From Candidatus Sulfuritelmatomonas gaucii (GTDB lineage Bacteria > Acidobacteriota > Terriglobia > Terriglobales > Acidobacteriaceae): a stretch of 64,000 nt of DNA. Positions 15,367 to 45,025 of the stretch are shown in pieces (the first letter of the stretch is position 1; each line of letters starts with the position of its first letter). A program made the translations under genes and the position numbers. The notes beneath the pieces were generated by a model that worked only from the letters and a program-made list of their open reading frames with translations, made no database searches and was not told where the DNA came from. The stretch covers positions 18,212 to 82,211 of the forward strand of contig OKRB01000105.1 of the NCBI GenBank assembly GCA_900290245.1, given 5' to 3'.

Positions 15367-15562
15367 CGAATCTCCTATTGGAAGAACGGTCGCAGGCAAA
15401 ATTGTAATTGCAGGCTGGTCACGGTGGATTGTCGAAGAGCCGGTTTCGCATGGGCTGTGTCGCCTGTCACGGGTGGGCGGATGAGTCCCAGGGACTGCCA
15501 GGTCCAGGATCTCTTCGAAAACCGCCGCCGGATCCGCCAGCCGTTCGCGAGAGAATGGGTTT

Positions 15563-27092: not shown

Positions 27093-27097
27093 AAAAA

Positions 27098-27138
27098 GAC
27101 AGGGACCAAGGGAACAAGGGACAGAGAGAACAAGGGCA
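27098..27138. repeat. Short-unit array (GGGAACAA type)
   Basis: Units AGGGACCA, AGGGAACA, AGGGACAG and AGAACAAGGG follow the BON gene stop by 5 nt. Same family as 4998, 5971 and 33760. Confidence 0.6.
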
Positions 27139-27226
27139 AAGACATCAGGCATCCGCGTTGGCGGGTGCCCGTTTTCGTTGCGGCGAAGCGCTGTTCGCAT
27201 GCGCAAGAGCTCTGATTGCCGTCGGA

Positions 27227-27232
27227 TATAAT
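27227..27232 (+). promoter_or_regulatory. Consensus -10 box upstream of the PpiD-like gene
   Basis: TATAAT at 27227-27232, 122 bp before the start codon at 27354. No clear -35 at the standard distance (CAAGAG region). A leader of about 115 nt would result. Confidence 0.4.
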
Positions 27233-27353
27233 GGCTTAGTCGCATTGAGCGAGAATTGCGCATTCGCAGGCGGCCGAAACCCAGCAGAACCTTCGCTGAT
27301 GCCTACCGGTCGAGCCTGTCCACGCGTAGAGAGTTGAAGGCAAAAATCCATCC

Positions 27354-29327: not shown

Positions 29328-29352
29328 GCGCGGATCATGCTTCGAACAAAAG

Positions 29353-29383
29353 GCCTGCAGCCTTGACGGTTGCGGGCGTTTTT
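29353..29383 (+). terminator. Rho-independent terminator candidate after the PpiD-like gene
   Basis: GCCTGCA (29353-29359) and TGCGGGC (29371-29377) pair with one G-T wobble, followed by G and five T (29379-29383). It lies 26 nt after the stop, within the gap to the convergent GH2 gene. Confidence 0.6.
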
Positions 29384-29403
29384 GCGTTGGCGTCTGCCTG
29401 CGA

Positions 29404-32136
29404 TTACGGCAAGGTGGAAGCGGCGAAGGGCAGCCCTGTCGTTGGCGAGCGGACGGGTTGCGCTTCCATGTTGGGCGCTACGGATGCGCCCGGAAACGAA
29501 GCCGGCGTTACCGATACATTCCATCCGTCGACCATGATGAGCGCGTCTTGACTCGAGGAATCCGGGCCGTGAAAATCGCTGGCCGCGGCTTCGATGATGA
29601 TGGTCTTTGTTTCATCGGAAACCAGTGAGACATAGTTGTCGCTGTAGAAAGCCGGCAGAACCCGCTCGCCCGATTTGCGGCGGAGCTGTATGTGCGCCAT
29701 CAGGGCAATATTTTTCGTGGGATTGTGGAGCGTGACTTGCAGACGACGCTGCCCCGGTGGATTGTCGGCGAGTTCTTCCACCTTCGCATCCAGCGTGACC
29801 ATCGGCATCTGGTTCAGAGCAGCAAGGTCATCGGGATTGCTGGGCGCGGCGCGCCAGTAGAAGTTGCTCGAGATCAGTTTTCCCGCGGCGTCGCGCAGGT
29901 CCAGCTTGATGAAGTGAACGGCTGAAAGATTCGCTGGAAAATCGATCGGGCCAATATCCGTGGCTGCGTCGGGCGTGGCGGTGAGCCTGGTTTCGTGCTG
30001 GTACACGAGCGAGCCGTCGAGGTTGTAAACCGCGATGTGCGCGGCCAAATCGGCGACCGGCTCGGGCTTGTTGTTGATCACCTGCACTTCGCCGTCGGCC
30101 TGGTTGAACTGGATGTGCACCATCTCTGACGCGTGCATGACGGCGAAGTACGAAGACATGGGTTCTAGGTCGTAGTCGTAGATCTGCCAGACAAAGCTCG
30201 GCTGCGCTGGATCGCTCATCCACGTAATGACGGCCGTTGTGGGATGGAAGAGCTGGGCGTTGCGTCCCTCGTACATGGCGCGGAAGGCTTCGTAGTTCAT
30301 CAGCTGCGCCTTGCGCACAAAGTCGGCGAGGTTGGCGACGTTGCCGTAGCGGCCGGCGAGAATCAAGGGGTAGAGATCGCCGTGCTGGTTTCCTTTGGCG
30401 AGGTCGTGAGCGGCCCAATCGTCGTTGATGGTCTCCCAATCTTTCTTGGGCATCATGGCGTGGATCGATTCCAGCGTCGGGACCGAAACGCTGCCCGTCT
30501 CCGTCTTGAAGTAATCGTCAGTGATGGTGTAGAACGCGCGCGGCGCCCGCCAATAATACGGGCCATGCGAACGCACGCCGCGGCCGCGGGTCGAGCTGGG
30601 CTGGTAGAGGCGCACGGGATCAAGGTCGGCGAGCAGCGTCTTCAGGGGTGCGTCAATCTCGGGAGGCGGATCGCCCTCATTGCGCGCGCACCACAGGATG
30701 ATGGAAGGATGATTGCGGAAGCGGAGGACCTTGTCGCGCACGTTGGCAAGGTAAGTCGGGATGTCGGTGGGATCGGGGCCATCGAGGGGATTGGGCTGGA
30801 AGAACTCATCCCACACAAGGATTCCGTACTTGTCGCATAGCTCGTAAAAATCTTCACCCGTGCTTTGGCCCACCCAGTTGCGAATCAGATTGAGGTTGGC
30901 CAATTTGTGCAGGCGGATCTCCGTGTCAAGCCGTTCGCGTGGGATCCGCTTCATGGCCTCGTCGAGTCCCCAGTCGCCGCCGCGAATGAAGATGGGCACG
31001 TCGTTGACAGAAATCGTGAGCGTGTCTGTGCCGGGCACCGAGTAGGTGATTTTGCGGACGCCGAAGTCCAAATCCTGCGCGTCAGAAACATCGCTGCCGG
31101 TTTTGAATTCGAGATGCAGGTGATAAAGATTCGGTTCCCCGTATCCATTGGGCCACCAGAGCCGCGGATGCTCCATGTGCAGCGCGGGCGTGTTTTTGGC
31201 ATCGAAAGTGATTTGCTGCGTCGAGTGCGCGGCAAGTTCCATCTGTCGCTCGAACGAAATGCTCTCGATGGTTCCGCGCACCACGCCTTGGACCGGCTTG
31301 TCGCTTACATTTTCAACAGTGGCCTGCACGGAGACGTCGGACGAATCGGTCTTCGGCAGCGGCAGATCGGTGGTCACGTACGGATCTTTCAGGACAACCG
31401 GACCGGTGGCAGAGAGATAGACCTTTTGCCAGATGCCGGAATCGCGATCGTGAACGGCGTCAAGCCAATCCCAGCCAAGCGTGCTAAGAAACGTGGGTCC
31501 GTCGATCGCGCTGATGCCTCCGTTCTGGCCGACGCCATCGCGCAGTGTGTGCTCATGCGGAACTCCGGGGTGCGGCTCTGGCGTGACGAGTACGGCAATC
31601 ACCGCATCATGACCCGGCTTGACCTGTGAAGTGATATCGAAATTGCCGCGGATGAAGGCTCCGCGAATGCTGCCCATCTTTGCGCCGTTTACCCAAACGT
31701 CCGCGGAGTAGTTGATTCCGTCAAAGTTGAGCCAGACGTGACGGTCTTTGTACGACTTCGGAACGCGGATCAGGGTTCGATACCAGTAGGACGTGTGAAC
31801 CAGGCTCTCGGGGATGATGTCGGTGCGATCGTTCTCGCCATAGAGCGGCTCGGGATAGACGTGGTTGTTGACAAGAGTGGTGAGCACGGTGCCTGGAACC
31901 GTGGCAGCGTACCAGCCGGTCGAGTTGAACCCTGCTGCGGACACTTGCGCCGCGGGTTCCGGCACCTTGGCCACATCCTGCAACTGCCAGCCGGAAGCGA
32001 GGGTTAACGGCTGCGGGAAAGCGGCCGCCTCGGCAGGAAGGGCTGCGAAGAGGGCGAGCAAAAGCGACAAGGCAGTGAGGACGAAGAAGAAGAGAGTACG
32101 GCCCGTTGGTTTGATCAATGCGCGATCCCCGATCAT
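29404..32136 (-). CDS. GH2 family glycosidase (beta-mannosidase / exo-beta-glucosaminidase type), secreted
   Basis: 910 residues from ATG 32136. Signal segment ending PAEAAAF. A jelly-roll domain (TLASGWQLQDV..., WVNGAKMGSIRGAF), two immunoglobulin-like domains and a TIM barrel follow. Acid/base Glu487 in CARNEGD and probable nucleophile Glu556 in VPTLES fit the subgroup containing exo-beta-D-glucosaminidase and endo-beta-mannosidase rather than lacZ. Substrate could be chitosan-like, mannan or N-glycan core. TTG 32163 is a poor alternative start. Divergent from malQ with about 104 bp between starts. Confidence 0.88.
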   Translation of the reverse strand: MIGDRALIKPTGRTLFFFVLTALSLLLALFAALPAEAAAFPQPLTLASGWQLQDVAKVPEPAAQVSAAGFNSTGWYAATVPGTVLTTLVNNHVYPEPLYGENDRTDIIPESLVHTSYWYRTLIRVPKSYKDRHVWLNFDGINYSADVWVNGAKMGSIRGAFIRGNFDITSQVKPGHDAVIAVLVTPEPHPGVPHEHTLRDGVGQNGGISAIDGPTFLSTLGWDWLDAVHDRDSGIWQKVYLSATGPVVLKDPYVTTDLPLPKTDSSDVSVQATVENVSDKPVQGVVRGTIESISFERQMELAAHSTQQITFDAKNTPALHMEHPRLWWPNGYGEPNLYHLHLEFKTGSDVSDAQDLDFGVRKITYSVPGTDTLTISVNDVPIFIRGGDWGLDEAMKRIPRERLDTEIRLHKLANLNLIRNWVGQSTGEDFYELCDKYGILVWDEFFQPNPLDGPDPTDIPTYLANVRDKVLRFRNHPSIILWCARNEGDPPPEIDAPLKTLLADLDPVRLYQPSSTRGRGVRSHGPYYWRAPRAFYTITDDYFKTETGSVSVPTLESIHAMMPKKDWETINDDWAAHDLAKGNQHGDLYPLILAGRYGNVANLADFVRKAQLMNYEAFRAMYEGRNAQLFHPTTAVITWMSDPAQPSFVWQIYDYDLEPMSSYFAVMHASEMVHIQFNQADGEVQVINNKPEPVADLAAHIAVYNLDGSLVYQHETRLTATPDAATDIGPIDFPANLSAVHFIKLDLRDAAGKLISSNFYWRAAPSNPDDLAALNQMPMVTLDAKVEELADNPPGQRRLQVTLHNPTKNIALMAHIQLRRKSGERVLPAFYSDNYVSLVSDETKTIIIEAAASDFHGPDSSSQDALIMVDGWNVSVTPASFPGASVAPNMEAQPVRSPTTGLPFAASTLP

Positions 32137-32240
32137 TCTTAATGAGTTTTGCTGTGCGCTCAAGAGGATACACGGTTTATCGTCTCAAAGGAAACATGCG
32201 GACGCTCGCGAGCGCGGGCGCATCTGATAAAAGGGACAAC

Positions 32241-33785
32241 ATGGAATTGCAACGCTCGGCTGGAGTTCTGCTGCATGTAAGTTCGCTGCCCTCTTACGGA
32301 GGGATCGGCAACCTGGGGCCTGCCGCGCACGAGTTTGTGGATTTTCTGGCCAAGGGGAAGCAGCATGTGTGGCAGGTTTTGCCGCTTTGTCCTACCGGCT
32401 ACGGCAACTCGCCTTACGCCGGCTCGTCGGCTTTTGCCGGTAATCCGTCGCTCATCAGCCTGGAGTTCCTCAGCGATTGGGGTTGGATCGACGGGGAGCG
32501 CATTGGAGAGTTGCCGGGCCGTTCGGGCGTTGTCAACTTTCAGGAGGTTGAAGACCGCAAACTGCCATTGCTCTACGAGGCTGCGGGCAAGTTTCTCGAT
32601 CACGGGCTCAATGATGGTGCGCTCGCCGATCAGTGGAAGGATTTTGAGGAGTTTTGCAACGGCCAGGCGGCTTGGCTGAACGACTACGCGCTCTATGCCG
32701 TGCTGCGCCGCAAGTTCAAGACGGGCGCGTGGACAGAGTGGCCTGAGCCTTTGCGCCGCCGGGATCCGCAGGCATTGGCGCAATTGGGGGCAGAACACGA
32801 GCGCGAGCTCGCCCTGGAGCGCGTACTGCAGTTTGCTTTCCAGGAGCAATGGCACCAGCTTCGCGAAGCGGCAGAGGAAAGCGGCATCAGAATGCTGGGC
32901 GATGTGGCGATCTTCGTCAACATGGATTCCGCAGACGTGTGGGTTCACCCCGATCTTTTTGAACTCGATGAGGAGCTGAAGCCGATCCGCATTGCGGGCG
33001 TTCCGCCGGACTATTTCTCGGCGACCGGCCAGCGGTGGGGGAACCCGCTCTATCGCTGGGACGTGCTCGCAGCGCACGAATTCGACTGGTGGATCGATCG
33101 CGTTCGCCGGGCCATCGAACTTTACGACATTGTGCGGCTCGACCATTTTCGCGGCTTCGAAGCGTATTGGGCTATCCCGGCGAAGGAAGAGACAGCGGTG
33201 AACGGCGAATGGGTGAAGGCACCGGGCCTCGAGCTGTTTCGCGCCATCGAGCGGGCGCTTGGTCCGGTCCCGTTTGTCGCTGAGGATCTCGGCTTGATCA
33301 CACTTGAAGTCGAAGCGCTGCGCAAGGAACTCGGGATGCCGGGCATGAAGGTGCTGCAATTCGGCTTCAGCAACAAGGGCGCACACACGCACTTGCCGTA
33401 CCGTTTCTTGCCCGGCACCGTGGCCTACACCGGTACGCACGATAACGACACGACGCAAGGCTGGTGGAACTCGGCGAGCGAAGCGGAGCGCGCAGCGGTG
33501 GAGGCTCTTCTTGGGCCGGTGGGCGATCGCCCCGCGTGGCCGCTGATTCGCGCAACGCAGGGAAGTATCGCCGAGATGGCCATCGTTCCCGCGCAGGACC
33601 TGCTGGAGCTCGGTTCCGAAGCGCGCATGAACACACCCGCCGTGGCGACAGACAACTGGAGCTGGCGCGCGCCCGAGGGTTGTTGGACGGAAGAGCTGGC
33701 GAAGAGGCTCGCGGCGCTGGCGGGGGTCACGGATCGGGAGAACGATCCAATCGAAAAGCAGGGAGCGAGGGAGCAAGGCAGCTAG
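32241..33785 (+). CDS. malQ: 4-alpha-glucanotransferase (amylomaltase, GH77)
   Basis: 514 residues. Transfers maltooligosaccharide units in glycogen and maltodextrin metabolism; cytoplasmic. All GH77 marks are present: N-terminal GVLLHVSSLPS, YGNSPYAGSSAFAGNP, nucleophile Asp301 in VRLDHFRGF, acid/base Glu348 in VAEDLG, and Asp401 in GTHDNDTT. Start ATG 32241 has AAGGGA 6 nt upstream; the frame is open further upstream to 32118 without family-like residues. The last nine residues (KQGAREQGS) and the stop are encoded by a GGGAGCGAGGGAGCAAGG array, so the C-terminus was extended or reset by repeat sequence. Confidence 0.95.
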   Translation: MELQRSAGVLLHVSSLPSYGGIGNLGPAAHEFVDFLAKGKQHVWQVLPLCPTGYGNSPYAGSSAFAGNPSLISLEFLSDWGWIDGERIGELPGRSGVVNFQEVEDRKLPLLYEAAGKFLDHGLNDGALADQWKDFEEFCNGQAAWLNDYALYAVLRRKFKTGAWTEWPEPLRRRDPQALAQLGAEHERELALERVLQFAFQEQWHQLREAAEESGIRMLGDVAIFVNMDSADVWVHPDLFELDEELKPIRIAGVPPDYFSATGQRWGNPLYRWDVLAAHEFDWWIDRVRRAIELYDIVRLDHFRGFEAYWAIPAKEETAVNGEWVKAPGLELFRAIERALGPVPFVAEDLGLITLEVEALRKELGMPGMKVLQFGFSNKGAHTHLPYRFLPGTVAYTGTHDNDTTQGWWNSASEAERAAVEALLGPVGDRPAWPLIRATQGSIAEMAIVPAQDLLELGSEARMNTPAVATDNWSWRAPEGCWTEELAKRLAALAGVTDRENDPIEKQGAREQGS

Positions 33786-33886
33786 AGAGCGAGAATGCAC
33801 GCGCGTTCGCCGCTTTCAGAAAAATGGAGCGTGCGCGTATCGCCTTTAGTGGGAATTGCGGCGATTTCCTTGCTCCCTTGCTCCCT
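33760..33886. repeat. Inverted pair of short-unit arrays between malQ and the PPC gene
   Basis: 33760-33778 (AGGGAGCGAGGGAGCAAGG) and 33868-33886 are reverse complements at 18 of 19 positions, 89 nt apart, between convergent genes. The left arm overlaps the malQ stop. Probable two-way terminator or mRNA-end structure. Confidence 0.7.
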
Positions 33887-33897
33887 TGCGCCCGGTT

Positions 33898-34446
33898 TTA
33901 CCGGTACGTGGAATCGTCGAAGCGGCTCATGTCGATCTTGTCGTCGAGCACGCCGAGGGTGATGACGGCAAAGGTAAAGACCTGCGTGTCGGGCTCGAGG
34001 TGACCGCCGAAGGAATGTTCCGCATTCGCGAGCGTAATGTGTGGGTGCACCCGGCCGTCCATCACCATGCCGCTCATGCCAATGATGTCGGCGGGCGCGG
34101 TGGGATTCTTGATGAACATATCTTTGGACGGCAGGTCGCGATTCGACACCTGGTGAACCTGGTAGCCGCGCACCGATCCGAAACCGGAGAGAATGACGGC
34201 ATTCTTGATCTTTTCCTGCGCGATCATCTGCTTGAGCCCGGCCAGCAGGTCGGTGCCGAATTTGAAGCGCAGCACGACGATGCGATCGAGGTGCCCGCTG
34301 ACGGCAAACACGTCGGGCACCGCAGGACTGTTGGGTTTGTTATCGATCGCCGGATTTCCCGTGGCATGGCTAGTCTCGTGGCGCGTCTCCTGCGCCGGCA
34401 GGGCCAGGCACCCTACAAGCAGTGCAACAGCAAACAGCTTTTTCAT
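33898..34446 (-). CDS. Exported PPC/DUF296 domain protein
   Basis: 182 residues. Signal peptide at 1-18 (LFAVALLVGCLALPAQ), then a PPC/DUF296 domain from about 45: RIVVLRFKFGTDLLAGLKQMI, NAVILSGFGSVRG, GRVHPHITLANAEHSFGGHLEPDTQVFTF, the last holding the conserved His residues that bind metal in relatives. PPC domains occur with AT-hooks in plant nuclear proteins and as cytosolic stand-alone proteins in bacteria. A signal peptide on this domain argues against DNA binding here; a periplasmic metal- or small-molecule role is more likely. Confidence 0.82.
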   Translation of the reverse strand: MKKLFAVALLVGCLALPAQETRHETSHATGNPAIDNKPNSPAVPDVFAVSGHLDRIVVLRFKFGTDLLAGLKQMIAQEKIKNAVILSGFGSVRGYQVHQVSNRDLPSKDMFIKNPTAPADIIGMSGMVMDGRVHPHITLANAEHSFGGHLEPDTQVFTFAVITLGVLDDKIDMSRFDDSTYR

Positions 34447-34511
34447 TTGGATTCCCCCTGGCCGCGAGAGCGTGTTCCGCGCAAGTGAAGATTTCCCTTC
34501 GCTCCGCGTTC

Positions 34512-34540
34512 TCCCTGACCCCTGATCGCTGACCCCTGAT
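34512..34540. repeat. Short-unit array (CCCTGACCCCTGAT type)
   Basis: Two near-identical CTGACCCCTGAT units just after the ssb stop (minus-strand sense ATCAGGGGTCAG). Same family as the array behind pyrH. Confidence 0.55.
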
Positions 34541-34548
34541 GCTTGTCG

Positions 34549-35016
34549 TCAGAACGGTATATCGTCGTCAGAAATCTCGGCCGCCTGCGCGTAATCATCC
34601 TGGCCGGCGGGTGGGCGCTGGTCTTCATTGACCGCTGCGTTGGCCGGGCTGGGGCGGTTGAATGCGCCGCCGTCGTCACGGCCCGAGAGCAGCGAAAGCT
34701 CGTTGACGATAATCTCGGTGCGATACACTTTGCGTCCCGCATATTCTTTATCGTCCCAGTTGCGGGTTGTGAGCCGGCCTTCGACAAACAGCTTCGAGCC
34801 CTTTTTCACGTAATCGCGGACGATCTCCGCCAGGCGCCCGTAGACGACAATGTTGTGCCACTCGGTGCGGTCCTGCCAGTTGCCCTGGCCGTCTTTAGAG
34901 CGCTCACTGGTGGCCAGCCCAAATGAGGCCACCATGGTGCCGCCGCCCGTGGAGCGAATTTCGGGATCCTTGCCGACATTACCCAAAAGAAAAACTCGGT
35001 TTACGCTCTTTGCCAT
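34549..35016 (-). CDS. ssb: Single-stranded DNA-binding protein
   Basis: 155 residues from ATG 35016 (MAKSVNRVFLLGNVGKDPEIRST) with AAGGAG 9 nt upstream. OB fold through about residue 110, with ASFGLATSE, WHNIVVYGRLAEI and VEGRLTTRNW. A disordered linker follows, then the acidic tip DDDIPF that recruits replication and repair partners. Tetrameric, cytoplasmic. An in-frame start at 35043 would add 9 residues and lacks a Shine-Dalgarno. No replication genes adjoin. Confidence 0.95.
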   Translation of the reverse strand: MAKSVNRVFLLGNVGKDPEIRSTGGGTMVASFGLATSERSKDGQGNWQDRTEWHNIVVYGRLAEIVRDYVKKGSKLFVEGRLTTRNWDDKEYAGRKVYRTEIIVNELSLLSGRDDGGAFNRPSPANAAVNEDQRPPAGQDDYAQAAEISDDDIPF

Positions 35017-35488
35017 GTTCGTGCTCTCCTTGTTCACTGCCAATTCTTCGTGTCACGTGCCAAAACCTGGAGTCAAGCTCGGCCAATATTCCGTGTCATG
35101 CCAAAAGCTCGTTTGAGGGGATTAGCAAATCTCCGCGACACTTTGTGGCCAGATTGGTCAGGAACAAACTTTCCTTTCCCTTCAGATCTCTGGTCCAAAG
35201 TATATGCGAGCGGCCAGAAGGGCAGCAAAGGTCATGTCAGCAACTCCAATGGATTTGGCCAGTGCCGCAACAACAGATGCTGAACCGTCGTCAGTCTCCC
35301 GTTCCCGATCGACGCGAAAAGGCAATCTTAAACAGCGGCGACGTGTGCCACACGTGTGCCGCTTTTCAGGTCTCAGGAGGGAGCAAGGCGCGCGAGACCG
35401 GCCAATTCCAAATTGTCGGGTCGATCGCTTACTTCTCACTTTGGCTGGTCTTAACCAGCTGTAGTATTAAGGGGATCTTCGCACGCCC
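35017..35488. other. 472-bp gap without a recognisable gene
   Basis: Region between divergent ssb and the GH89 gene. Codon use in all frames is poor and no domain is seen. It holds an inverted GGTCTC...GAGACC pair flanking an AGGAGGGAGCAAGG fragment of the short-unit family (about 35370-35400) and the palindrome at 35444-35459. Presumably promoters for both neighbours. Confidence 0.5.
35444..35459. promoter_or_regulatory. Palindrome upstream of the GH89 gene
   Basis: GCTGGT CTTA ACCAGC, a perfect 6-bp inverted repeat, 30 bp before the start codon. It differs from the LacI-type site at 37905-37922, so if it is an operator it may serve another regulator. It could also be a short leader hairpin. 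Confidence 0.4.
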
Positions 35489-37783
35489 ATGATGCCGGCT
35501 TTGAATGGCTTGCTTACAAAAGCACTGACCGCGCTCTGCATTCTTTTCGCTACGGCGCATGTAGTTCATGCGGCCGATGCAAAGAGCGGCCAACTGCAGC
35601 CAGCCAGAGCAGCCCTCAAACGGTTGATTCCCTCACTGCAGTCGCAGATCAGTCTCTCAAAGATAAGTAGCGGTGACGGCGGCGATGCATTTCGTATTTC
35701 CGGAACAAAGGGGAACATCCAGGTAGAGGCGACTTCAAACGTCGCCGCTCTTTTTGGAGTGAACTGGTATCTCAGGTATGTTGCGCATTTACAAATCTCC
35801 TCAAACGGGGATCAGCTTCGGTTTCGGGGCAAACTGCCGGGTCCGCCCGAGGCGATCGAAAAGAAGTCACCGTATCGTTATCGCTATGCGCTGAACGAAA
35901 ACACCGACGGCTACTCAACACCGTACTGGGATTGGGCCCATTGGGAACGCGAAATCGATCTGCTCGCAGCCAGTGGCATCAACGCCATGCTTGTGGAACG
36001 TGGCGCGGATGAAGTGCTCTATCGAACTTTCCGTGAATTAGGCTACCCGGACGGCGAGATTCGCCAGTGGATTGCGCAGCCCGCACACCAGAACTGGCAA
36101 TTGATGGGCAACCTGTGTTGTTTTGACGAGCCCATCTCACGGCAACTGCTTGAGCGGCGCACGCAATCGGCCAGGCAGATGGTTGCGCGGCTGCGCGAAC
36201 TCGGCATCACGCCTGTCCTACCCGGCTATTTCGGAATCGTTCCGGAAGGCTTTGCCAAGCGACATCCGGGCGCTCACGTGGTTGCGCAGGGGACGTGGAA
36301 CGGTTTCAGCCGCCCCGGTTGGCTCGACCCACGCGATCCTCTCTTTGCGGAAGTGGCTGCGGCTTTTTACCGGCACGAGCGTGAACTTTTTGGCGACACG
36401 TCGATCTACGACATGGAGCCATTTCAAGAAGGCGGGACACCTGGAAAGGTGCCTGTGAGCGCGGCCGCAAAGCGCATCCAGCAGATGCTCAATCTCGCCC
36501 ACCCTGACGCGCTATGGATGATGCTTGCGTGGCAGGACAATCCATCGCCGGTTCTGCTTGAAGGAGTGAATCGTAACCGGCTTCTGATCGTTGACATCGA
36601 ACAGGGACGCACGCCCCACGAAGCCCGTGAAGCAGATTTTCGAGGGGCGCACTATCTGTTCGGCGGACTGTGGGAGTTTGGGGGACGGACGACGCTGGGC
36701 GCGAATCTTTACGACTACGCTGTGCGCCTGCCAGCGATGGGGACTCGACCGGGGAGCAAGATGGCCGGCACCGCGTATTTCTCTGAAGGGCTCGACACAA
36801 ATCCCGCGGCGTTCACGCTCTTCACTGAAATGGCGTGGCGCGAACAACCGGTTGACGTGATTGAGTGGTCGAAGGGCTATGCCAGGAGCCGCTATGGGAG
36901 CGACGATCCACATGCCGAGCGAGCGTGGCAGATCCTGATGCAGACGGTATACAGCGGGATGGCTGACAGTGTTTCCAATCATGGTGAGCGGGACGCAGCA
37001 ACAGAATCTCTATTCGCCGCACAGCCAAGCCTGACGGCTACGAAGGCATCGATATGGGCTCCGGATCAGCTTCGTTATGCGCCGGAGGAGTTGGAAAGCG
37101 CGTTGACGGAGCTGCTCGAAGCCGGCCCAGCGGTTCGAGCGACTGCCACGTACCAATATGACCTGGTCGATGTTGCCCGCCAGGTGATATCCAACTGGAG
37201 CAGAGCGGCGCTGCCGCAAATCAAAGACGCTTACGACCATCGCGACGAGGCGCAGTTCCAAAGTCTTGCTCAGCGATGGCTAAAGATGATGGACCTGGAA
37301 GACGCGATGCTTGCGACGAACTCTTCGTTTTTGCTGGGGCGCTGGCTTGACGCAGTGACGCCATGGGCGGCAAGCGACGGCGAAATGCGACGCCTGCAAT
37401 TTGATGCGCGGTCGATTTTGACAACCTGGGGCGACCGGACCGCCAGTGAAGCAGGATTGCACGATTACGGCAACAAGGAGTGGGCCGGGCTAATTTCGGG
37501 CTACTACCGGCCGCGATGGCAACTTTATTTTGACAAACTCGCTCAGTCAATGAAGGAAGGAACGGCTCCGGGGAAGATCGACTGGTTCCAGATTGGCGAG
37601 CGATGGAACGGGTCGCTCACGGGATACACAACGCGACCCCAGGGTAATTCGTGGTCCGCTGCCAACAAGGTGGCGCAAGAGCTTGGTATACTTTGCCGGC
37701 GCCCTGAGGGATCGGGTGGTGACTTGGTGTCGAGCTCCTCGGCCTGTGCTGATCAGGAAGGATTGCGCGCGACTCCCAAATAG
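35489..37783 (+). CDS. Alpha-N-acetylglucosaminidase (GH89, NAGLU family), secreted
   Basis: 764 residues; signal peptide to about residue 29 (ends HVVHAAD). N-terminal domain to ~110, then the catalytic barrel: YRYRYALNENTDGYSTPYWDWAHWEREIDLLAASGINAML is the GH89 signature. By alignment from memory with human NAGLU, acid/base Glu310 (IYDMEPFQEG) and nucleophile Glu433 (AYFSEGLDTN) are 123 residues apart, like the 130 in the human enzyme. Removes terminal alpha-linked GlcNAc. First gene of the 35-45 kb locus, 626 bp upstream of the TonB receptor operon. Start ATG 35489 or 35492. Confidence 0.92.
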   Translation: MMPALNGLLTKALTALCILFATAHVVHAADAKSGQLQPARAALKRLIPSLQSQISLSKISSGDGGDAFRISGTKGNIQVEATSNVAALFGVNWYLRYVAHLQISSNGDQLRFRGKLPGPPEAIEKKSPYRYRYALNENTDGYSTPYWDWAHWEREIDLLAASGINAMLVERGADEVLYRTFRELGYPDGEIRQWIAQPAHQNWQLMGNLCCFDEPISRQLLERRTQSARQMVARLRELGITPVLPGYFGIVPEGFAKRHPGAHVVAQGTWNGFSRPGWLDPRDPLFAEVAAAFYRHERELFGDTSIYDMEPFQEGGTPGKVPVSAAAKRIQQMLNLAHPDALWMMLAWQDNPSPVLLEGVNRNRLLIVDIEQGRTPHEAREADFRGAHYLFGGLWEFGGRTTLGANLYDYAVRLPAMGTRPGSKMAGTAYFSEGLDTNPAAFTLFTEMAWREQPVDVIEWSKGYARSRYGSDDPHAERAWQILMQTVYSGMADSVSNHGERDAATESLFAAQPSLTATKASIWAPDQLRYAPEELESALTELLEAGPAVRATATYQYDLVDVARQVISNWSRAALPQIKDAYDHRDEAQFQSLAQRWLKMMDLEDAMLATNSSFLLGRWLDAVTPWAASDGEMRRLQFDARSILTTWGDRTASEAGLHDYGNKEWAGLISGYYRPRWQLYFDKLAQSMKEGTAPGKIDWFQIGERWNGSLTGYTTRPQGNSWSAANKVAQELGILCRRPEGSGGDLVSSSSACADQEGLRATPK

Positions 37784-37867
37784 TTTCACCACTTCTCAGT
37801 TGGTCAACGCGGAACTTTTCATGGTGCACACTCCTGGTCATGAATGGAGTCGTTATTGACAAAAAGC

Positions 37868-37895
37868 TTGACAATGGAATGCGGCATGTTCTAGG
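37868..37895 (+). promoter_or_regulatory. Promoter of the TonB receptor-PI-PLC-LacI operon
   Basis: TTGACA (37868-37873, perfect -35) and TCTAGG (37890-37895, weak -10) with a 16-bp spacer. Transcription would start near 37902, right at the LacI-type palindrome, and leave a leader of about 500 nt before the receptor start codon. Confidence 0.6.
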
Positions 37896-37904
37896 GTTCC
37901 AGAA

Positions 37905-37922
37905 TACGTAAGCGCTAACGTA
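37905..37922. promoter_or_regulatory. LacI-family operator candidate
   Basis: TACGTAAGCGCTAACGTA: all symmetric pairs match except one (A/A at positions 6 and 13). It has the central CG of LacI/PurR-type operators and lies immediately downstream of the promoter at 37868-37895, where a repressor would block initiation. A LacI-family gene is the last gene of the downstream operon. Confidence 0.75.
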
Positions 37923-38409
37923 CCCGGAGATACGATTGCGGTTCGAAGCGCGGTTTCCCCTTGTTACGATCATTGAGGCTAAGTGATGCATGGTCCCGCT
38001 CGGCCCCCTGTGGCACATCCAAAGTTGGGGCGGTTCCTGGGATGCAGGAATCGCACAACGCGACCAAGAGAAGTCTGTGGAATCTGAAATCACCTGAGCC
38101 TCTTGCTGCAGATGTTGGGCTAGTCTTTTCTGACGTTGCGGGCCTCTGCCAATTCCTCCAAATTGCTTACTGCGAGGAGCCACCAAGAGCAGTTAAACAT
38201 CCTGTAACTTGTTTGGCTCAGACTGGATCTGCGCTCGCTCCTGCAGAAGGAGCGGCAAGCGCATTTCCAATACTCGGGTTTCCGATCGACCTTGCACGGT
38301 GGGTACACTTCCCCGGAGCTTGCAGCGCTTGAAGCTGCAACAGTTTTCCGTGCTGATGACCGATCTGAGCCCGAATCGATCCAGAACCTTTGAAAGGAGT
38401 CAAGACAAG
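37923..38409 (+). other. Long leader region of the receptor operon without a gene
   Basis: About 490 nt with no convincing coding frame. Two good hairpins are visible: 38230-38263 (nested TGCGC and CGCTCCT arms around GCAGA) and 38320-38340 (TTGCAGC/GCTGCAA, 7 bp). I recognise no known riboswitch. A second promoter inside it cannot be excluded. Confidence 0.45.
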
Positions 38410-41400
38410 ATGGCTAGATTGACCGTGTTGAACAGGCTGGTGTGCGCGGCGCTATTTCTGATTTCAGGCGCATTCATTTGCACGTCGGCCAGCGCGCAAT
38501 TTGAAACCGCATCGGTACTGGGCTTCGTACACGACACGTCAGGAGCGGCAGTAGCCAATGCGAAAGTCACGCTCATCAACGTTGCCACGGGTACCGAAGC
38601 AACGGTCACAGCGGACAGCCAGGGCGAATTCGAATTTACGAGCGTTCGCGTTGGCAATTACAAAGTGACGGGATCCGCATCAGATTTCAGCGCCACCACG
38701 ACGGATGCGTTCACGGTTGAAGTGAACGCGCGCCTGCGGGTTGACATTTCGCTGAAACCGGGCGCAGCGAGCGAAACCATTACCGTAACCGGCGCTGCCG
38801 CACTGCTCAATACCGAAGATAGTGAACGCGGCCAGATTATTTCTGCCCGCGACGTAAGCAATCTTCCGCTGAACGGCCGCGCTTACGCCGATCTGGCCCT
38901 GCTTACGCCGGGCGTGCGCGCGAACAACCTGGAAAACCAAACTGTGACCAGCCGCGACGCATCGTACAACGTCAACGGAGAGCGCAGCGAATTCAATAAC
39001 TTCCTTCTCGACGGCTTGGACAATAACGCCTACGGCACATCGAACCAGAGCTTCTCGAACCAGGCGATCCAGCCTTCGCCCGATGCCATCAGCGAGTTTC
39101 GCGTTGAAACGGACAACTACAGCGCGGAGTATGGACGCGCGTCCGGAGCCGTCTTCAACGTCAGCATCAAGAGCGGGACAAATCAACTGCACGGCGGTTT
39201 GTGGGAGTACAACCGCAACACCGACTTCAACGCGATTGGCCCATTCAAGCCTCCCACCAACGTCTTGACCGGAAAGTCGCAGAAACCCGTGCTCGTGAAG
39301 AACCAGTTCGGTGGAGACATCGGCGGACCGATGCCGATCTTCAAGGGCAAGATTTTTTATTTCGGCGATCTTGAGAGCAACCGGCAGGTACAGGGCCAAT
39401 ATTCCGCTTCCACCGTGCCCAACAGCAATCAGCGCCAGGGCGTTTTTACCGACACGAACGGCAACCCGGTTCCGTTGCACAATCCTCTTACCGGTACGGT
39501 CTATGCCAATGGCATTGTTCCCCAATCGGACTGGGGTTCGCTGGCCAAGCTTGTCATTCCGGCATTGCCCTCAGCCAATGTGAGCGGGGCCTTCTCAAAT
39601 AACCTTGTCAATGTTCCAAAAGCCAACTTCAAAGATTACAGAAGCGATGCGCGATTTGATTTCTTTTTGAATCCACGCAGCACGGCCTTTTTCCGCTGGA
39701 GCTATCACCACCAGGACATCGTCGACGCTGAGCCCATCACCGGCCCGGCCGGAGGAAACGGCAACGGTACCATTCATGACTACAATAAGCAAATCGCGGC
39801 GGGTTATACCTTCCTGTTCAACCAGCACTCGATCCTTGATGCTCGAGTAGCTTTCACCTGGACCCTCGGCGGAAAAACACCGTATGGCCTGGGCCAGCAG
39901 AGTTTGCTCGTGCAGGCAGGTATTCCGGGCTTACCGACCAGCCCGGTAGTCTCGCGCTCGCTGAATGATCAGAACGTGAGCAGCTTCAGCCAATTTGGAT
40001 CGCAGCCAAGCAACCCGCAGTTTCAGAACCCTTTCGCTATCGATCCGAAGGTAAATTACACGCTTCTCAAGGGCCGCAACAGCATGAAGTTCGGCTACGA
40101 GTACCAGTCGATCAACACAGAGATCGACGACTTCAACCCGGTCTATGGGCAGGACAACTATTCCGGCGGATTCAGTGCCGGCCTCTCGAACGCCAGTGCC
40201 GGCAGTTACAACAGCAACGGCGATGCCGGCATCAAGGAGGCCGCATTCCTCGCCGACTTTCTGGTTGGCGCACGCAGCCTGTACCAGTTGAACAACTTCC
40301 GCATTGTGAACTATCACCAGCGCATGAACTTCATCTATTTCCAGGACGACATGAAACTCACGCGCAATTTCACGGTGAATGCGGGAATGCGCTACGAGCT
40401 CGCGACGCCGCAATGGGTCGACGGAAATCACCTGGCAAATTACGACCCGAACACGAATACGCTGCTGCAGGCCCAGGGGGGCTCACTCTATGGCAGCGCG
40501 CTCGTGAATATGCCGAAGACCGATTTCGCTCCGCGCATTGGCTTCTCCTACGGCTGGAAAGACAAGACGGTGATTCGCGGCGGCTACGGTATAAGTTATG
40601 ACCAGTTCAATCGCGAAGGCGGCGAAAATCTGCTCGCCTATAACGGGCCGTACATCGTCAACTCGTCCATTACGCAGCAGGTTGTTACCAGCGGCGTCAA
40701 CACGCCAATTTGCGCCGCCAACGTGCAATCGACCACCTGCTTCAGCCCGGAGTCACAGGGCTACGGCACGAACTTTGTAAGCGCAGCGGGATTCAGCACT
40801 GCACTGGCACAGACGCGCTACATTCCGCCGAACATCGCCACCGGTTACGTGCAGGCCTGGCACTTCGGTATCCAGCGCAAGTTGAATGAAAGCACGCTGT
40901 TCGATGTCTCCTATGTCGGCGAGCACGGGGTTCACATATGGGTGCTTGACGATATCAATCAGGCTACTCCGAACACGCCTTCGTCTACTTGCAGCAACAC
41001 CGTCAACTCGGGCTGCGTACCATTGCTCAATCGCCGCCCGCATGTCGGATTCACGGGTATCGAAGGGTCCTCTAACGCGGGCATGTTGATCTATCACGGC
41101 CTTCAGGCCAGGCTTGAACACCGCTACTCGGGCGGACTCTACCTCCTTGATGCATTCTCGTATTCACGGGCCGTTGACAATGCATCAGGCCACCTGGACA
41201 CGCCGAACAATGACAATTCGCGCGTGAACCTCGCCAATCTCCGCGGCGAGCGCGGGCAGTCGGCTTACAACCAGCCGCTGAACGACACGCTCACCGCTAT
41301 CTGGGATCTGCCTTACGGCCGCGGCCGGCACTGGGGCGCAAGCGCCAATCGCATGATGCAGACTGTAGCGGGCGGCTGGCAATTTACCATCATCGATACT

Positions 41401-41841
41401 GCTACCAGCGGACAGCCTGTCAACCTGATCTACTCCGAGCCTTCGCAGTTTGACGTAAGTGACTTGCTCAACTATCGCCCCAATGTTACCGGCAACCCGA
41501 AATCACTACGGGGCTCCTGGGTGAAGACAAATACTTCGCTGAACGGATACCTGAGCTCGTCGACTGTCAGCGTCCCCACCGACATTACGCACCCTTACGG
41601 TAACGCCGGGAGAAACTCCATTCGCGACAACGCCTTCTACCAGGTGAACGCCGGACTGCACAAGCTGTTTCCGCTGTGGAGCGAGTCGTCGAGCCTGGAT
41701 TTCCGCTGCGAAGCGTTTAATTTACTCAACAATGTCAACTACACGGCGCCAGACTCCAACCGCCAGGACGGTGGATTCGGCTCCATCATAGGATACTTTC
41801 CACCGCGCCAGCTGCAACTGGCCCTCAAATTGAACTTCTAG
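38410..41841 (+). CDS. Oar-like TonB-dependent outer-membrane receptor with carboxypeptidase-regulatory domain
   Basis: 1143 residues from ATG 38410 (AAAGGAG 9 nt upstream). Signal peptide to ~35 (ends TSASAQ). A carboxypeptidase-regulatory-like domain at about 38-115 (GFVHDTSGAAVANAKVTLINVATG) precedes a plug (about 125-260: LPLNGRAYADLALLTPGV, SYNVNGERSEFNNFLLDGLDNN) and a barrel ending RQLQLALKLNF. These receptors take up or bind large substrates at the outer membrane. It is the first gene of an operon with a phosphoesterase, PI-PLC and LacI regulator (34-bp, 18-bp and 39-bp gaps), so its substrate is probably what those enzymes process. Confidence 0.93.
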   Translation: MARLTVLNRLVCAALFLISGAFICTSASAQFETASVLGFVHDTSGAAVANAKVTLINVATGTEATVTADSQGEFEFTSVRVGNYKVTGSASDFSATTTDAFTVEVNARLRVDISLKPGAASETITVTGAAALLNTEDSERGQIISARDVSNLPLNGRAYADLALLTPGVRANNLENQTVTSRDASYNVNGERSEFNNFLLDGLDNNAYGTSNQSFSNQAIQPSPDAISEFRVETDNYSAEYGRASGAVFNVSIKSGTNQLHGGLWEYNRNTDFNAIGPFKPPTNVLTGKSQKPVLVKNQFGGDIGGPMPIFKGKIFYFGDLESNRQVQGQYSASTVPNSNQRQGVFTDTNGNPVPLHNPLTGTVYANGIVPQSDWGSLAKLVIPALPSANVSGAFSNNLVNVPKANFKDYRSDARFDFFLNPRSTAFFRWSYHHQDIVDAEPITGPAGGNGNGTIHDYNKQIAAGYTFLFNQHSILDARVAFTWTLGGKTPYGLGQQSLLVQAGIPGLPTSPVVSRSLNDQNVSSFSQFGSQPSNPQFQNPFAIDPKVNYTLLKGRNSMKFGYEYQSINTEIDDFNPVYGQDNYSGGFSAGLSNASAGSYNSNGDAGIKEAAFLADFLVGARSLYQLNNFRIVNYHQRMNFIYFQDDMKLTRNFTVNAGMRYELATPQWVDGNHLANYDPNTNTLLQAQGGSLYGSALVNMPKTDFAPRIGFSYGWKDKTVIRGGYGISYDQFNREGGENLLAYNGPYIVNSSITQQVVTSGVNTPICAANVQSTTCFSPESQGYGTNFVSAAGFSTALAQTRYIPPNIATGYVQAWHFGIQRKLNESTLFDVSYVGEHGVHIWVLDDINQATPNTPSSTCSNTVNSGCVPLLNRRPHVGFTGIEGSSNAGMLIYHGLQARLEHRYSGGLYLLDAFSYSRAVDNASGHLDTPNNDNSRVNLANLRGERGQSAYNQPLNDTLTAIWDLPYGRGRHWGASANRMMQTVAGGWQFTIIDTATSGQPVNLIYSEPSQFDVSDLLNYRPNVTGNPKSLRGSWVKTNTSLNGYLSSSTVSVPTDITHPYGNAGRNSIRDNAFYQVNAGLHKLFPLWSESSSLDFRCEAFNLLNNVNYTAPDSNRQDGGFGSIIGYFPPRQLQLALKLNF

Positions 41842-41875
41842 TCCGCAGAGGAAGGAAGAAAACCCGAGGGTAGAG

Positions 41876-42823
41876 ATGATGACCATCACCCGTCGGCAGT
41901 TTGGAATTCTCTCTGCCGGTGCTCTGGGCTCAAGCCTCACGCGCTCGCTTTGGGCGCGTGAGGCGTCCCCGACTGACAGGGACCGTTACTTCTACTTCGC
42001 CGTCATCGCGGATTCGCATGTCATCGATGGTTTCTATCACGGCCAGGAGAGCAACGCTGAAGACACGGAAAGCCTACAACATACCGCGGCAAACCTGGTT
42101 TCCGCACGCACCCTCATCAACAGCCTCGATCCGCCCATCGAACGGGTTTTTGTGGTTGGCGACTATTTTCACAATTATCCGTCTTTGGATTACGACTTTT
42201 ACTTCAAGAACACGACGCGGCTCGACAATGCCAAGGCGATTACCGACGGATTCAGGATGCCCGTTCAGGTCGGACTGGGAAATCACGATTACGGAGTACC
42301 CGGCGTTTCGCGCGAGATGAGTCATCGCCTCTTCGAGGCTAAGTTCCACATCAAGCCCTATTACGCCCTGGAGCACAAGGGCCACAAATTTATCGACCTG
42401 AACAACTTTCTTGGCACGACCTGGGGCCCGGCATCCACGATGGTGGATCGCACAACGGGATCGCTTGGCGAAGAGCAGCTGAACTGGTTTGAAGCGCAGC
42501 TTGAAGAGGGAAAGCCTTCTTTCGTTTTCATCCACTATCCCCTTTGGCTCGTCGTCCCCAAGGAAGTCGCCGATTATGGACTGCATCCGCTGATCCGCAA
42601 GCACAAGGAGACGATTCAACTTGTCGTCTCGGGACACTGGCACAAATGGGTAGATTTCGCGCATACCTACGGGCCGCAGCAATATGTGATCGCGGCCACG
42701 CGCTATGACCCCAACGCATACATGTTGATGGAAGTGGACCGCCAGCGAAACACCTGGCGTTTTCTCAACGAAAGCCTCGTCGAGTGGTCCACGCATTACA
42801 GCAAACCGTACAACCATGCATAA
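41876..42823 (+). CDS. Tat-exported calcineurin-like metallophosphoesterase
   Basis: 315 residues with a Tat signal (TRRQFGILSAGALGSSL). Metal-site motifs in order: ADSHV, VVGDYFHN (GD), GLGNHDYG (GNHD), FIHYPLW and SGHWHKW (GHxH), so the dinuclear site looks complete. The first motif reads D-S-H as in cyclic-nucleotide and phosphodiesterase-like members. Acts in the periplasm on a phosphomonoester or phosphodiester. Lies between the receptor and PI-PLC genes, which suggests it removes phosphate from the product of the PI-PLC. Confidence 0.9.
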   Translation: MMTITRRQFGILSAGALGSSLTRSLWAREASPTDRDRYFYFAVIADSHVIDGFYHGQESNAEDTESLQHTAANLVSARTLINSLDPPIERVFVVGDYFHNYPSLDYDFYFKNTTRLDNAKAITDGFRMPVQVGLGNHDYGVPGVSREMSHRLFEAKFHIKPYYALEHKGHKFIDLNNFLGTTWGPASTMVDRTTGSLGEEQLNWFEAQLEEGKPSFVFIHYPLWLVVPKEVADYGLHPLIRKHKETIQLVVSGHWHKWVDFAHTYGPQQYVIAATRYDPNAYMLMEVDRQRNTWRFLNESLVEWSTHYSKPYNHA

Positions 42824-42841
42824 GTTCTACGACCAGGAGCG

Positions 42842-43966
42842 ATGATGCCCTCGCGAAGCAATCGAATGCTGTCTTTCCTCATAGGCCTGGCGCTCTGCGC
42901 TCTGCCTGCCACCTGCCAGAAGAACGATCAGTTGCGATTGAACCAGATCCAGGTCATCGGGACTCACAACAGTTATCATGCCGGCTTTGCGCCCAGCGCG
43001 GCGCAATTATGGCAAACCAAGAATCCGAGTATGTTCGACGGCCTCGACTATCGTCATGTGCCGTTGAATCAACAATTCGACGGAGGCGTGCGCCAGATCG
43101 AGCTTGATGTCTTCGCCGACAGCAAAGGAGGGCTCTACGCGCATCCAACCGGTCCGTCGATGATTGCGGCCGCGAATCTGCCACCCGATCCTGACTTCGA
43201 TCCCGACGGCGTTATGACCAAGCCGGGTTTCAAGGTCATGCACATTCAAGATATCGACTTCCGCAGCACGTGTCAGCCGTTCATCGCATGCCTGCGTCAA
43301 GTGAAGGAATGGTCACATGCCCACCCGGGACACATCCCCATCTTTATTCTTGTCGAGACAAAACAGGGTGCGCCGCGCAGCCCAGTGCAGCGCACTGTGC
43401 CGGAGCCATTCACCTCTGCGACTTTCGACGCACTCGACGCGGAGATTCGCGCGGTGTTTTCCCCCGATCAGCTCATCACTCCCGACGACGTTCGCGGAAG
43501 CTACGCAACGCTGAACGATGCAGTCCTCCACGGAAACTGGCCGACGCTGCTCAGCGCACGCGGGAAAGTGATTTTTCTCATGGACCAGCGGCCGGTTGGT
43601 CCTGTTTATCTTGAGGGCCACCCCTCGCTACGCGGCCGTGTGCTGTTTACCAATGCCGAGCCGGGAGAGCCCGATGCCGCCTTCATCGAGCGCAACGACG
43701 GTCCGTCGAGCGAGATTTCGGAGCTCGTTCGCAAAGGCTACCTCGTCCGCACTCGAACCGATGCTGACACACGGGAGGCCCGCACGAACTCAACCGGTCG
43801 CCGGGACACTATGATGGCGAGCGGCGCGCAAATCCTGAGCACCGATTATCCGGCGAACGAGCCCGCGCGCTGGCCGGGGCATTATTCAGTGAGCTTGCCC
43901 GGGAACGCCATTGCTCGCTGTGACCCCGTGAATTCTCCGGCTACCTGTAGCGGTGCACTGCGATAG
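42842..43966 (+). CDS. Secreted phosphatidylinositol-specific phospholipase C-like protein (calcium-type)
   Basis: 374 residues; signal peptide to ~25 (ends LPATCQ). N-terminal catalytic motif QVIGTHNSYH, then GVRQIELDVFADSKGGLYAHP and a late VRTRTDADTREAR...QILSTDYP segment. These match the calcium-dependent PI-PLC family described from Streptomyces. It would cleave the bond between diacylglycerol (or ceramide) and phosphoinositol headgroups. 18 bp after the phosphoesterase gene. ATG 42842 or 42845; the GGAG at about 42837 favours the second by spacing. Confidence 0.88.
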   Translation: MMPSRSNRMLSFLIGLALCALPATCQKNDQLRLNQIQVIGTHNSYHAGFAPSAAQLWQTKNPSMFDGLDYRHVPLNQQFDGGVRQIELDVFADSKGGLYAHPTGPSMIAAANLPPDPDFDPDGVMTKPGFKVMHIQDIDFRSTCQPFIACLRQVKEWSHAHPGHIPIFILVETKQGAPRSPVQRTVPEPFTSATFDALDAEIRAVFSPDQLITPDDVRGSYATLNDAVLHGNWPTLLSARGKVIFLMDQRPVGPVYLEGHPSLRGRVLFTNAEPGEPDAAFIERNDGPSSEISELVRKGYLVRTRTDADTREARTNSTGRRDTMMASGAQILSTDYPANEPARWPGHYSVSLPGNAIARCDPVNSPATCSGALR

Positions 43967-44005
43967 CCGGCTGCCACATATTTCTTTGCTTCAGGAGATT
44001 CCTCC

Positions 44006-45025
44006 ATGGCAGTTCGGATGAAAGACATTGCGGCCGACCTGGGAGTCTCGCTGGTTACCGTTTCCAAAGTCCTCCGCAACAAGACTGACGTGGGCGAGAA
44101 GACACGGAGGCGCGTTCTCAAGCGGGTTCGAGAATTGAAGTATCAGCCGAATATGCTGGCTCGCGGTTTGGCCTCAGGAAAGAGCTACTCGATTGGCCTT
44201 GTTGTCCCTGATCTGGTGCATACGTTTTTTGCAGAGTTGGCGATGGGAGTGAGCGCCGGCCTTCGCAAGGATTCCTACCAATTGATTCTCGCTTCAGCCG
44301 AAGAGGAACCAGGGCTTGAATGCCAGGAGATCGAGCACCTGCTGGCACGGGGAGTGGATGCACTGCTGATCGCGTCCTGCCAAAACAGTTTCGCCGGCTT
44401 CAAATCGCTCTTACATGCGAAGGTCCCGTACATCCTGCTCGATCGCTTTCTTCCCAATCTCAAAGCGCACTTCGTCGGCACAGACGATGTTGCCGCCGGC
44501 CGCATCGCAACCGAACATCTCATCCAGCTCGGCCGGCGGCGCATCGCACACATCGGTGGCGAGGTGATCAGCACTTCGTTGGGAAGATTGGACGGGTACA
44601 AAAAGGCGCTATCAGCAAACAAACTTCCGTTTCGCAGCGAACTCGTTGTGACTCGCTCCCGGCTTGAAGAAGCAGGCGTGCAGATCGGAGAGCACGCGAT
44701 GGGCGATTTGCTCAGAATCAAGCGAATTCCCGATGCGGTCTTCTGCTATAACGATCTGACTGCGGTGGGGGCGATTCATTGCCTTCTTCGGAATAAACTG
44801 CGTGTTCCCGAAGATGTCGCCGTAATGGGCTGTGGCAATATTCGTTTATCGGAGTACCTCGAAGTGCCTCTCAGTACGATCGATCAATGTCCGGAACGAC
44901 AGGGTGCAGAGGCTGCCAGGCTCGCGCTTTCCATGATCGCGCAAGAACGAAGGCCGAGAGCTGAACGATTCCTTGTCGAACCGAAGCTGATCGCCCGGGA
45001 ATCGACGATGGGACGTGCCAAGTAG
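44006..45025 (+). CDS. LacI family transcriptional regulator
   Basis: 339 residues. Helix-turn-helix at 5-25 (MKDIAADLGVSLVTVSKVL), hinge helix (PNMLARGLASGK) and a periplasmic-binding-type effector domain (IGLVVPDLVHTFFAELAMGV, VGTDDVAAGRIATEHLIQLGRRRIAHIGG, CYNDLTAVGAIHCL). AGGAG precedes ATG 44006. Last gene of the receptor operon. The palindrome at 37905-37922 is its likely site, giving negative autoregulation and induction by a sugar or inositol-type ligand. Confidence 0.93.
   Translation: MAVRMKDIAADLGVSLVTVSKVLRNKTDVGEKTRRRVLKRVRELKYQPNMLARGLASGKSYSIGLVVPDLVHTFFAELAMGVSAGLRKDSYQLILASAEEEPGLECQEIEHLLARGVDALLIASCQNSFAGFKSLLHAKVPYILLDRFLPNLKAHFVGTDDVAAGRIATEHLIQLGRRRIAHIGGEVISTSLGRLDGYKKALSANKLPFRSELVVTRSRLEEAGVQIGEHAMGDLLRIKRIPDAVFCYNDLTAVGAIHCLLRNKLRVPEDVAVMGCGNIRLSEYLEVPLSTIDQCPERQGAEAARLALSMIAQERRPRAERFLVEPKLIARESTMGRAK

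Follow-up and report, generated by a model that had tools for sequence, protein, structure and literature searches.

The closest described counterpart that we found for the locus reported here is phosphate utilisation system I (PUSI) of Flavobacterium johnsoniae, a SusCD-type TonB system with enzymes of the families PF00149 and PF16670, which is predicted to import and cut phosphodiesters such as lipid headgroups (PMC8115612). On the regulatory side, seven LacI-family groups have been described for inositol use (PMC4052901). Here, we analyzed a stretch of 64,000 nucleotides from Candidatus Sulfuritelmatomonas gaucii (Acidobacteriaceae), referred to as the window, and focused on an operon-like set of genes at 38410-45025. 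Like PUSI (PMC8115612), this set places a TonB-type outer-membrane system beside PF00149 and PF16670 enzymes. Its four genes, which code for a receptor, a metallophosphoesterase (MPE), a phosphatidylinositol-specific phospholipase C (PI-PLC), and a LacI-family regulator, form a real, conserved unit. It is fairly probable that this unit is an operon repressed by its own LacI, which would answer to inositol or a close product, and that it harvests phosphoinositol headgroups. The region contains the following features:

35489-37783, plus strand: GH89 alpha-N-acetylglucosaminidase (Pfam), a neighbour whose membership in the unit is unsupported
37868-37897, plus strand: promoter-like stretch TTGACA-N18-TAGGGT, read from the sequence, in front of the operator
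37906-37921, no strand: putative LacI operator ACGTAAGCGCTAACGT, a near-palindrome, 488 bp before the receptor start
38410-41841, plus strand: TonB-dependent receptor with CarboxypepD_reg, plug, and OMP_b-brl_4 domains (Pfam and relatives)
41876-42823, plus strand: twin-arginine translocation (Tat)-type calcineurin-like MPE (Pfam and relatives)
42842-43966, plus strand: predicted exported calcium-type PI-PLC of PF16670 (Pfam, fold, and conserved residues)
44006-45025, plus strand: LacI-family regulator of an inositol-linked clade (Pfam, clade, and neighbourhoods)

Gene content and conservation of the unit

A sequence-only reading of the window had placed five genes, GH89 included, on the plus strand with 626, 34, 18, and 39 bp between them, and had taken them for a possible locus for the use of inositol-phosphate glycolipids. 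Pfam searches recovered all five at these positions, and the gaps hold given a receptor start at 38410. The listed open reading frame (ORF) of the receptor opens with a TTG at 38209, and the ATG at 38410 behind an AGGAG is the likelier start. The receptor matched OMP_b-brl_4 (E 4e-195), CarboxypepD_reg (E 5e-17), and Plug (E 3e-5). The MPE matched the metallophosphoesterase family (E 4e-9), and its N-terminus, MMTITRRQFG, reads by eye as a twin-arginine motif. For GH89, the NAGLU TIM barrel (E 5e-100) was detected together with the N- and C-terminal domains, all above cut-off. No Rfam family was matched in the window, including the 488 bp between the operator and the receptor start (37922-38409); a similarly long gap is seen in two related loci, L031 and L038.

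The PI-PLC matched PI-PLC-C1 over the whole model (E 4e-139), with 463.7 bits against PF16670 (cut-off 29.9) for residues 31-362 over model positions 1-329. The best PDB matches of its AlphaFold model (mean pLDDT 90.5) were calcium-dependent PI-PLCs (5fyr, 5fyp, 5fyo, and 3h4w), with E-values of about 1e-14 to 1e-15. The enzymes of Streptomyces antibioticus (3h4w) and Pseudomonas sp. (5fyo) have the same fold as the acidobacterial enzyme and resemble it in sequence over a short stretch (E 6e-10 and 3e-9, respectively), but are only ~18% identical to it over the structural alignment. The HNSY and ELD stretches are kept, and H42, N43, E87, and D89, which we take to be active-site residues, are invariant in 26 sequences. 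The enzyme is predicted to be of the calcium type and to cleave phosphoinositol lipids. The model of the MPE is weak (mean pLDDT 67.6), with GpdQ and SMPDL3A among its best structural matches, and was judged too weak for naming a substrate from structure.

PF16670 was detected in 14 of the 149 genomes of relatives, and the PI-PLC is therefore an accessory gene. Among 34 record titles of its relatives, 33 name acidobacteria, by genus or as Bryobacterales; the exception is a Cyclobacteriaceae metagenome-assembled genome (L063, 38% identity). Named strains with the gene are Terriglobus roseus DSM 18391, Edaphobacter lichenicola, Granulicella spp., and Bryocella elongata. We compared 40 distinct PI-PLC loci, namely 34 named loci, five non-duplicates from 14 further stretches (nine duplicates were dropped), and the window. 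Two genomes supply two loci each (G046 with L017 and L028, and Edaphobacter X5P2 with L055 and L060), and several contigs are short (L044, L049, L063, and L064 among them), so that absences there mean little.

With thresholds of 500 bits (receptor), 300 bits (LacI and MPE), and 200 bits (GH92 and GH89), the receptor was present in 18 of these 40 loci, the MPE in 11, LacI in six, and GH89 in the window alone. Receptor relatives in the 17 other loci are 44-78% identical (at least 500 bits), always upstream and on the same strand; in L037 (5469-8946) the match is split over two frames. In ten other loci, an MPE copy (58-82% identity) directly precedes the PI-PLC match on the same strand, at a distance of 9-172 bp, and a LacI of the window's group occurs in five other loci. 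Receptor and PI-PLC identities to the window covary (rho 0.87, n = 17), a pattern that common descent alone could also give. Since receptor, MPE, and LacI recur at PI-PLC loci and GH89 does not, the unit consists of receptor, MPE, PI-PLC, and LacI, with GH89 as a neighbour. The earlier grouping of these four genes into one operon-like set was thus borne out, and the neighbourhood recurs in relatives, except for GH89 (0 of 39 other loci).

GH89 keeps the glutamates in EPFQEGG and SEGLDTNP, aligned with CpGH89, which are presumably catalytic. Its inclusion in the locus was rejected: besides its absence from the other PI-PLC loci, its position is upstream of the operator, and its occurrence across genomes does not follow that of PI-PLC (2 of 14 PI-PLC genomes vs 7 of 135 without PI-PLC, p 0.20). 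No operator-like site at up to one mismatch was found in 26614-37905, hence none in front of GH89. The gene is probably not part of the operon; the sequence-only reading had itself warned that it may belong to another regulon. One further genome (G075, L145), where a 55%-identical GH89 lies ~5 kb from myo-inositol oxygenase (MIOX), was not counted, as there are intervening genes and no PF16670 match; a glucuronyl-esterase-like gene and, on the other strand, a GH9 gene stand between the two.

An inositol-linked LacI clade, its putative operator, and inositol sinks

Relatives of the LacI were searched in the 149 genomes and loci were taken from 30 matches, one per genome, with wider stretches around eleven of them; several further LacI matches lie beyond the 30 loci that were read. 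In a maximum-likelihood tree of 35 rows, the window's LacI fell in a clade of nine (support 100/99). All nine stand beside PI-PLC, MIOX, or iol genes, and five of them beside MIOX or iol genes, in a sample that is not neutral, as five clade rows besides the window entered via PI-PLC searches. In the stretches examined around the 26 other rows, no MIOX, IolD, IolE, IolG, or PI-PLC scored above 100 bits; these rows had been classed as "other" by default, with a subsequent check that mostly covered 1.5 kb to either side. Just outside the clade, a relative in G146 (54%) lies near an alpha-galactosidase, and no MIOX, iol, or PI-PLC genes were seen there.

After the PI-PLC-linked sequences, the three best LacI matches (G012, G063, and G074, at 55%) are all located beside MIOX or iol genes, in genomes that gave no PF16670 match. 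In G012, the LacI adjoins MIOX, and a fragment of a window-type receptor lies near a contig end. In G063 and G074, it stands with a PfkB kinase, a GH4 glycosidase, IolD, an IolE-like protein, and IolG; the scores in G074 (L149) are 917 bits for IolD (cut-off 715), 455 for IolG (355), and 185 for the IolE-like protein, which is below its cut-off of 290. Because clade members adjoin MIOX or iol genes in genomes without PI-PLC, the link to inositol is independently supported, and the inositol theme of the earlier reading is probably right. The kinase and the glycosidase lie upstream of LacI in the iol operon (4629-7132 in L149 and 4795-7301 in L148), which suggests that glycosyl-inositol may also be fed in. 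Between LacI and IolD, both loci also show a 480-aa minus-strand ORF that matches no family and is possibly spurious.

The proposed regulon takes its most compact form in the complete genome of Terriglobus roseus DSM 18391 (L061, 6434-13409), with the order transporter, LacI, operator, MIOX, PI-PLC, and a GH92-like gene. An Edaphobacter locus (L053) has the order transporter, LacI, metallo-beta-lactamase, MIOX, receptor, and PI-PLC. The metallo-beta-lactamase-fold protein of this locus (3982-4881), between LacI and MIOX, has a signal-like N-terminus; going by the title of PMC6584368, a domain of this type has reportedly been linked with phytase activity.

The putative operator of the window lies between GH89 and the receptor, 8 bp after the promoter-like stretch, and a position just after a promoter would suit a repressor. 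The -10 element of this stretch (TAGGGT) matches TATAAT at three of six positions, and a consensus promoter scan does not list it; the same TTGACA-N18-TAGGGT is present in L038, and L031 and L053 each have a TTGACA about as far away. The 16-mer is the sole exact copy in its own genome, where copies at up to two mismatches occur at control level. An identical site lies between divergent LacI and receptor genes in L038, and one with a single mismatch in L031. When searched at up to two mismatches in the six clade loci that were not used to define it, the 16-mer yielded six sites in four loci (four of the sites coming from the near duplicates L148 and L149), whereas 60 permuted palindromes averaged 0.03 sites and never gave more than 1. 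It yielded none in eight loci of more distant LacI genes.

Sites of this kind precede the start or match of MIOX by ~27-52 bp in L053, L061, L147, and L103, and in L053 and L061 a site further stands before the transporter-LacI operon. They also precede receptors in L031, L038, L056, and L147 and, more loosely, in L039, L053, L058, and L062. A degenerate consensus, matched exactly, gave six sites in the 34 named loci from which it was itself partly built, vs a permuted mean of 0.16, and 0 of 200 permutations reached six. In L060, an operator-like site at 13836 (one mismatch) stands in front of a PafA-like phosphatase (14023-15696; 319 bits, cut-off 650) near PI-PLC and LacI.

As for the fate of inositol, the genome of the window encodes an IolD (940 bits, cut-off 715) in an iol cluster on another contig. 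The cluster also codes for IolG- and IolE-like proteins (63% and 64%, respectively, to their L149 counterparts), a PF04962 protein resembling IolB, an aldehyde dehydrogenase that may be IolA, and a relative of the transporter found in the MIOX operons. No MIOX was found in this genome, which is 93.8% complete. Among the PI-PLC genomes at least 90% complete, a sink was present in four of five (G000, which is the window's own, G054, G069, and G121, and not G046), which is too few to weigh. Across the 149 genomes, IolD was detected in 34 (E 1e-200) and MIOX in 31, and both together only in G059, where ~7 would be expected if they were independent. The iol and MIOX routes seem to replace each other, with common descent uncontrolled in this comparison.

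Phosphoinositol headgroups as the proposed substrate and rival explanations

Under the reading that we prefer, the four genes would be transcribed together. Acting on phosphoinositol lipids, the exported PI-PLC would free inositol phosphate or cyclic inositol phosphate, the MPE may then open the cyclic ester or take off the phosphate, and the TonB receptor would carry the headgroup across the outer membrane. In the window's own genome, freed inositol would pass to the iol cluster on the other contig, and in some relatives to the MIOX of the same operon or regulon. LacI, encoded by the last gene, would repress the operon, with inositol or a close product as its effector. Acidobacteria are commonly found in acid soils with much membrane debris from fungi and plants, and a regulon that joins a secreted PI-PLC, a receptor, and inositol catabolism would tie lipid turnover to the use of carbon and phosphorus in soil.

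Several observations weigh against an inositol-responsive operon of this kind. The window-type receptor is missing from 22 of the 40 PI-PLC loci, some of which have other TonB-type receptors beside PI-PLC. Sinks are not enriched, as IolD or MIOX was present in 7 of 14 PI-PLC genomes vs 56 of 135 others (p 0.37; 57 of 135 when G040, with a partial IolD below cut-off, is included; IolC and IolJ lay outside the search). The own iol cluster has no operator-like site, and the site between LacI and iolD in L148 and L149 lies ~940 bp before iolD. In 30 MIOX loci taken with 1.5 kb to either side, a site at up to one mismatch was found in two and was lacking in 28, and a LacI of the window's group was found in one. 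With one mismatch, the degenerate motif is also found next to some LacI genes that do not belong to the clade (L125/L154, L135, L136, L151, and L164), and at up to one mismatch the 34 named loci hold 12 sites vs 0-20 for 20 permutations. The distance of the iol site from iolD and the 28 MIOX loci without a site lowered our confidence slightly. In addition, it is phosphate depletion that induces PUSI, the nearest published locus found (PMC8115612).

This induction, in which transcripts of PusCD1, an extracytoplasmic function (ECF) sigma factor, and the PF00149/PF16670 pair rise (PMC8115612), agrees with phosphorus scavenging, whereby the trio mainly frees phosphate from lipid headgroups and inositol is a by-product, as proposed for PUSI. 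With the thresholds applied, neither IolD nor MIOX was detected in seven of the 14 PI-PLC genomes (of these seven, five are <80% complete), and the PafA-like phosphatase of L060, itself below cut-off, points the same way. On the other hand, the LacI clade to which the regulator belongs is linked to inositol genes, and no Pho-box-like site was found near the operon with an E. coli-type consensus, from which the acidobacterial PhoB site may differ. Taken together, phosphorus scavenging as the main function appears rather improbable. Use of glycosylphosphatidylinositol (GPI) anchors or glycerophosphoinositol, with PI-PLC and a GpdQ-like phosphoesterase acting on protein-linked or deacylated phosphoinositol, is more improbable by far: it would fit the structural matches of the MPE to GpdQ and SMPDL3A, but these come from a weak model and nothing else indicates GPI.

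A further possibility is compatible with the inositol-responsive operon and narrows it. Glycosidases accompany PI-PLC at several equivalent loci: GH92 lies within ~4.1 kb in 9 of 40 (seven on the same strand and two on the opposite one, in two sequence clusters), a GH27 gene comes after PI-PLC in Bryocella (L062), and a GH59 gene stands before the operator in L031, one locus each. Of the 15 PI-PLC genes in the 149 genomes, at least 4 lie within 6 kb of a GH92, where the density of GH92 would predict ~0.13, and 11 of 14 PI-PLC genomes contain GH92 vs 51 of 135 others (p 0.004; the 62 genomes include one below cut-off, 61 being over it), but both figures are inflated by relatedness and by the 6-kb limit, which was chosen after looking. 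The heads of glycosylinositol phosphoceramides (GIPCs) carry mannose in Arabidopsis and N-acetylglucosamine (GlcNAc) in tomato (PMC11496612), so that an alpha-mannosidase or an alpha-GlcNAcase could each make sense. These glycosidases make glycosylated inositol lipids a plausible substrate.

Following this line, Terriglobales would possess a LacI-controlled, TonB-fed system that eats glycosylated inositol-phosphate lipids of fungi or plants, with GIPCs as the main substrate. The core genes for receptor, phosphoesterase, and PI-PLC would be joined by a terminal glycosidase that varies between loci (GH92, GH27, GH59, and perhaps GH89) and by either iol or MIOX as the sink. If true, this would be, to our knowledge, the first bacterial locus for GIPC utilisation. 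We hold this proposal as tentative and on balance doubtful, since 28 of the 40 loci show no GH92, GH27, GH59, or GH89 match, GH89 accompanies PI-PLC at a single locus and outside the operator-controlled unit, related loci were pooled, and GH92 genes may cluster for other reasons. Moreover, the GIPC-PLC of Botrytis was picked as a putative sphingomyelinase and not as a PF16670 enzyme (PMC11496612). The window itself holds a GH92 alpha-mannosidase on the minus strand (2727-4958), one of five matches in the genome (one of them partial), ~38 kb from PI-PLC. Also on the minus strand is a GH2 protein with an exo-beta-glucosaminidase Ig domain (29404-32163), next to a GH77 4-alpha-glucanotransferase (32118-33785).

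Relation to described systems

Among the matches listed in openly licensed literature on inositol lipids, MIOX, LacI, GH92, and Acidobacteria, PUSI was the only bacterial locus with a like gene set. In Table 1 of its description, the two Pfam numbers look crossed against their descriptions (PMC8115612). The sequence-only reading knew of no described locus with this exact gene set, which must be corrected: PUSI already pairs a TonB system with PF00149 and PF16670 enzymes (PMC8115612). On the one hand, PUSI includes a SusD partner and an ECF sigma factor and is switched on by phosphate depletion (PMC8115612). On the other hand, the window has an OMP_b-brl_4/CarboxypepD_reg receptor and an operon that ends in an inositol-clade LacI. 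No SusCD pair was found at the operon, as no gene fits into the gaps of 34, 18, and 39 bp from receptor to LacI, and the flanking genes are GH89 and a SpoIIM-like gene by Pfam (in a scan for SusD that covered neither ORFs <120 aa nor the rest of the genome).

Likewise, regulators of the IolR type resemble the window's LacI in being LacI-family proteins tied to inositol use (PMC4052901). The window differs from their gene sets by including a secreted PI-PLC and a receptor. Acidobacteria are not named in the main text of that work, and in an inositol survey (PMC9430895) they are likewise absent, the word "oxygenase" appearing there once, for yeast. The gene logic of the operon at 38410-45025 resembles that of PUSI, and its receptor type and regulator are different. 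The operon is a new variant of the PUS-like plan, most likely responsive to inositol and serving the use of phosphoinositol headgroups.

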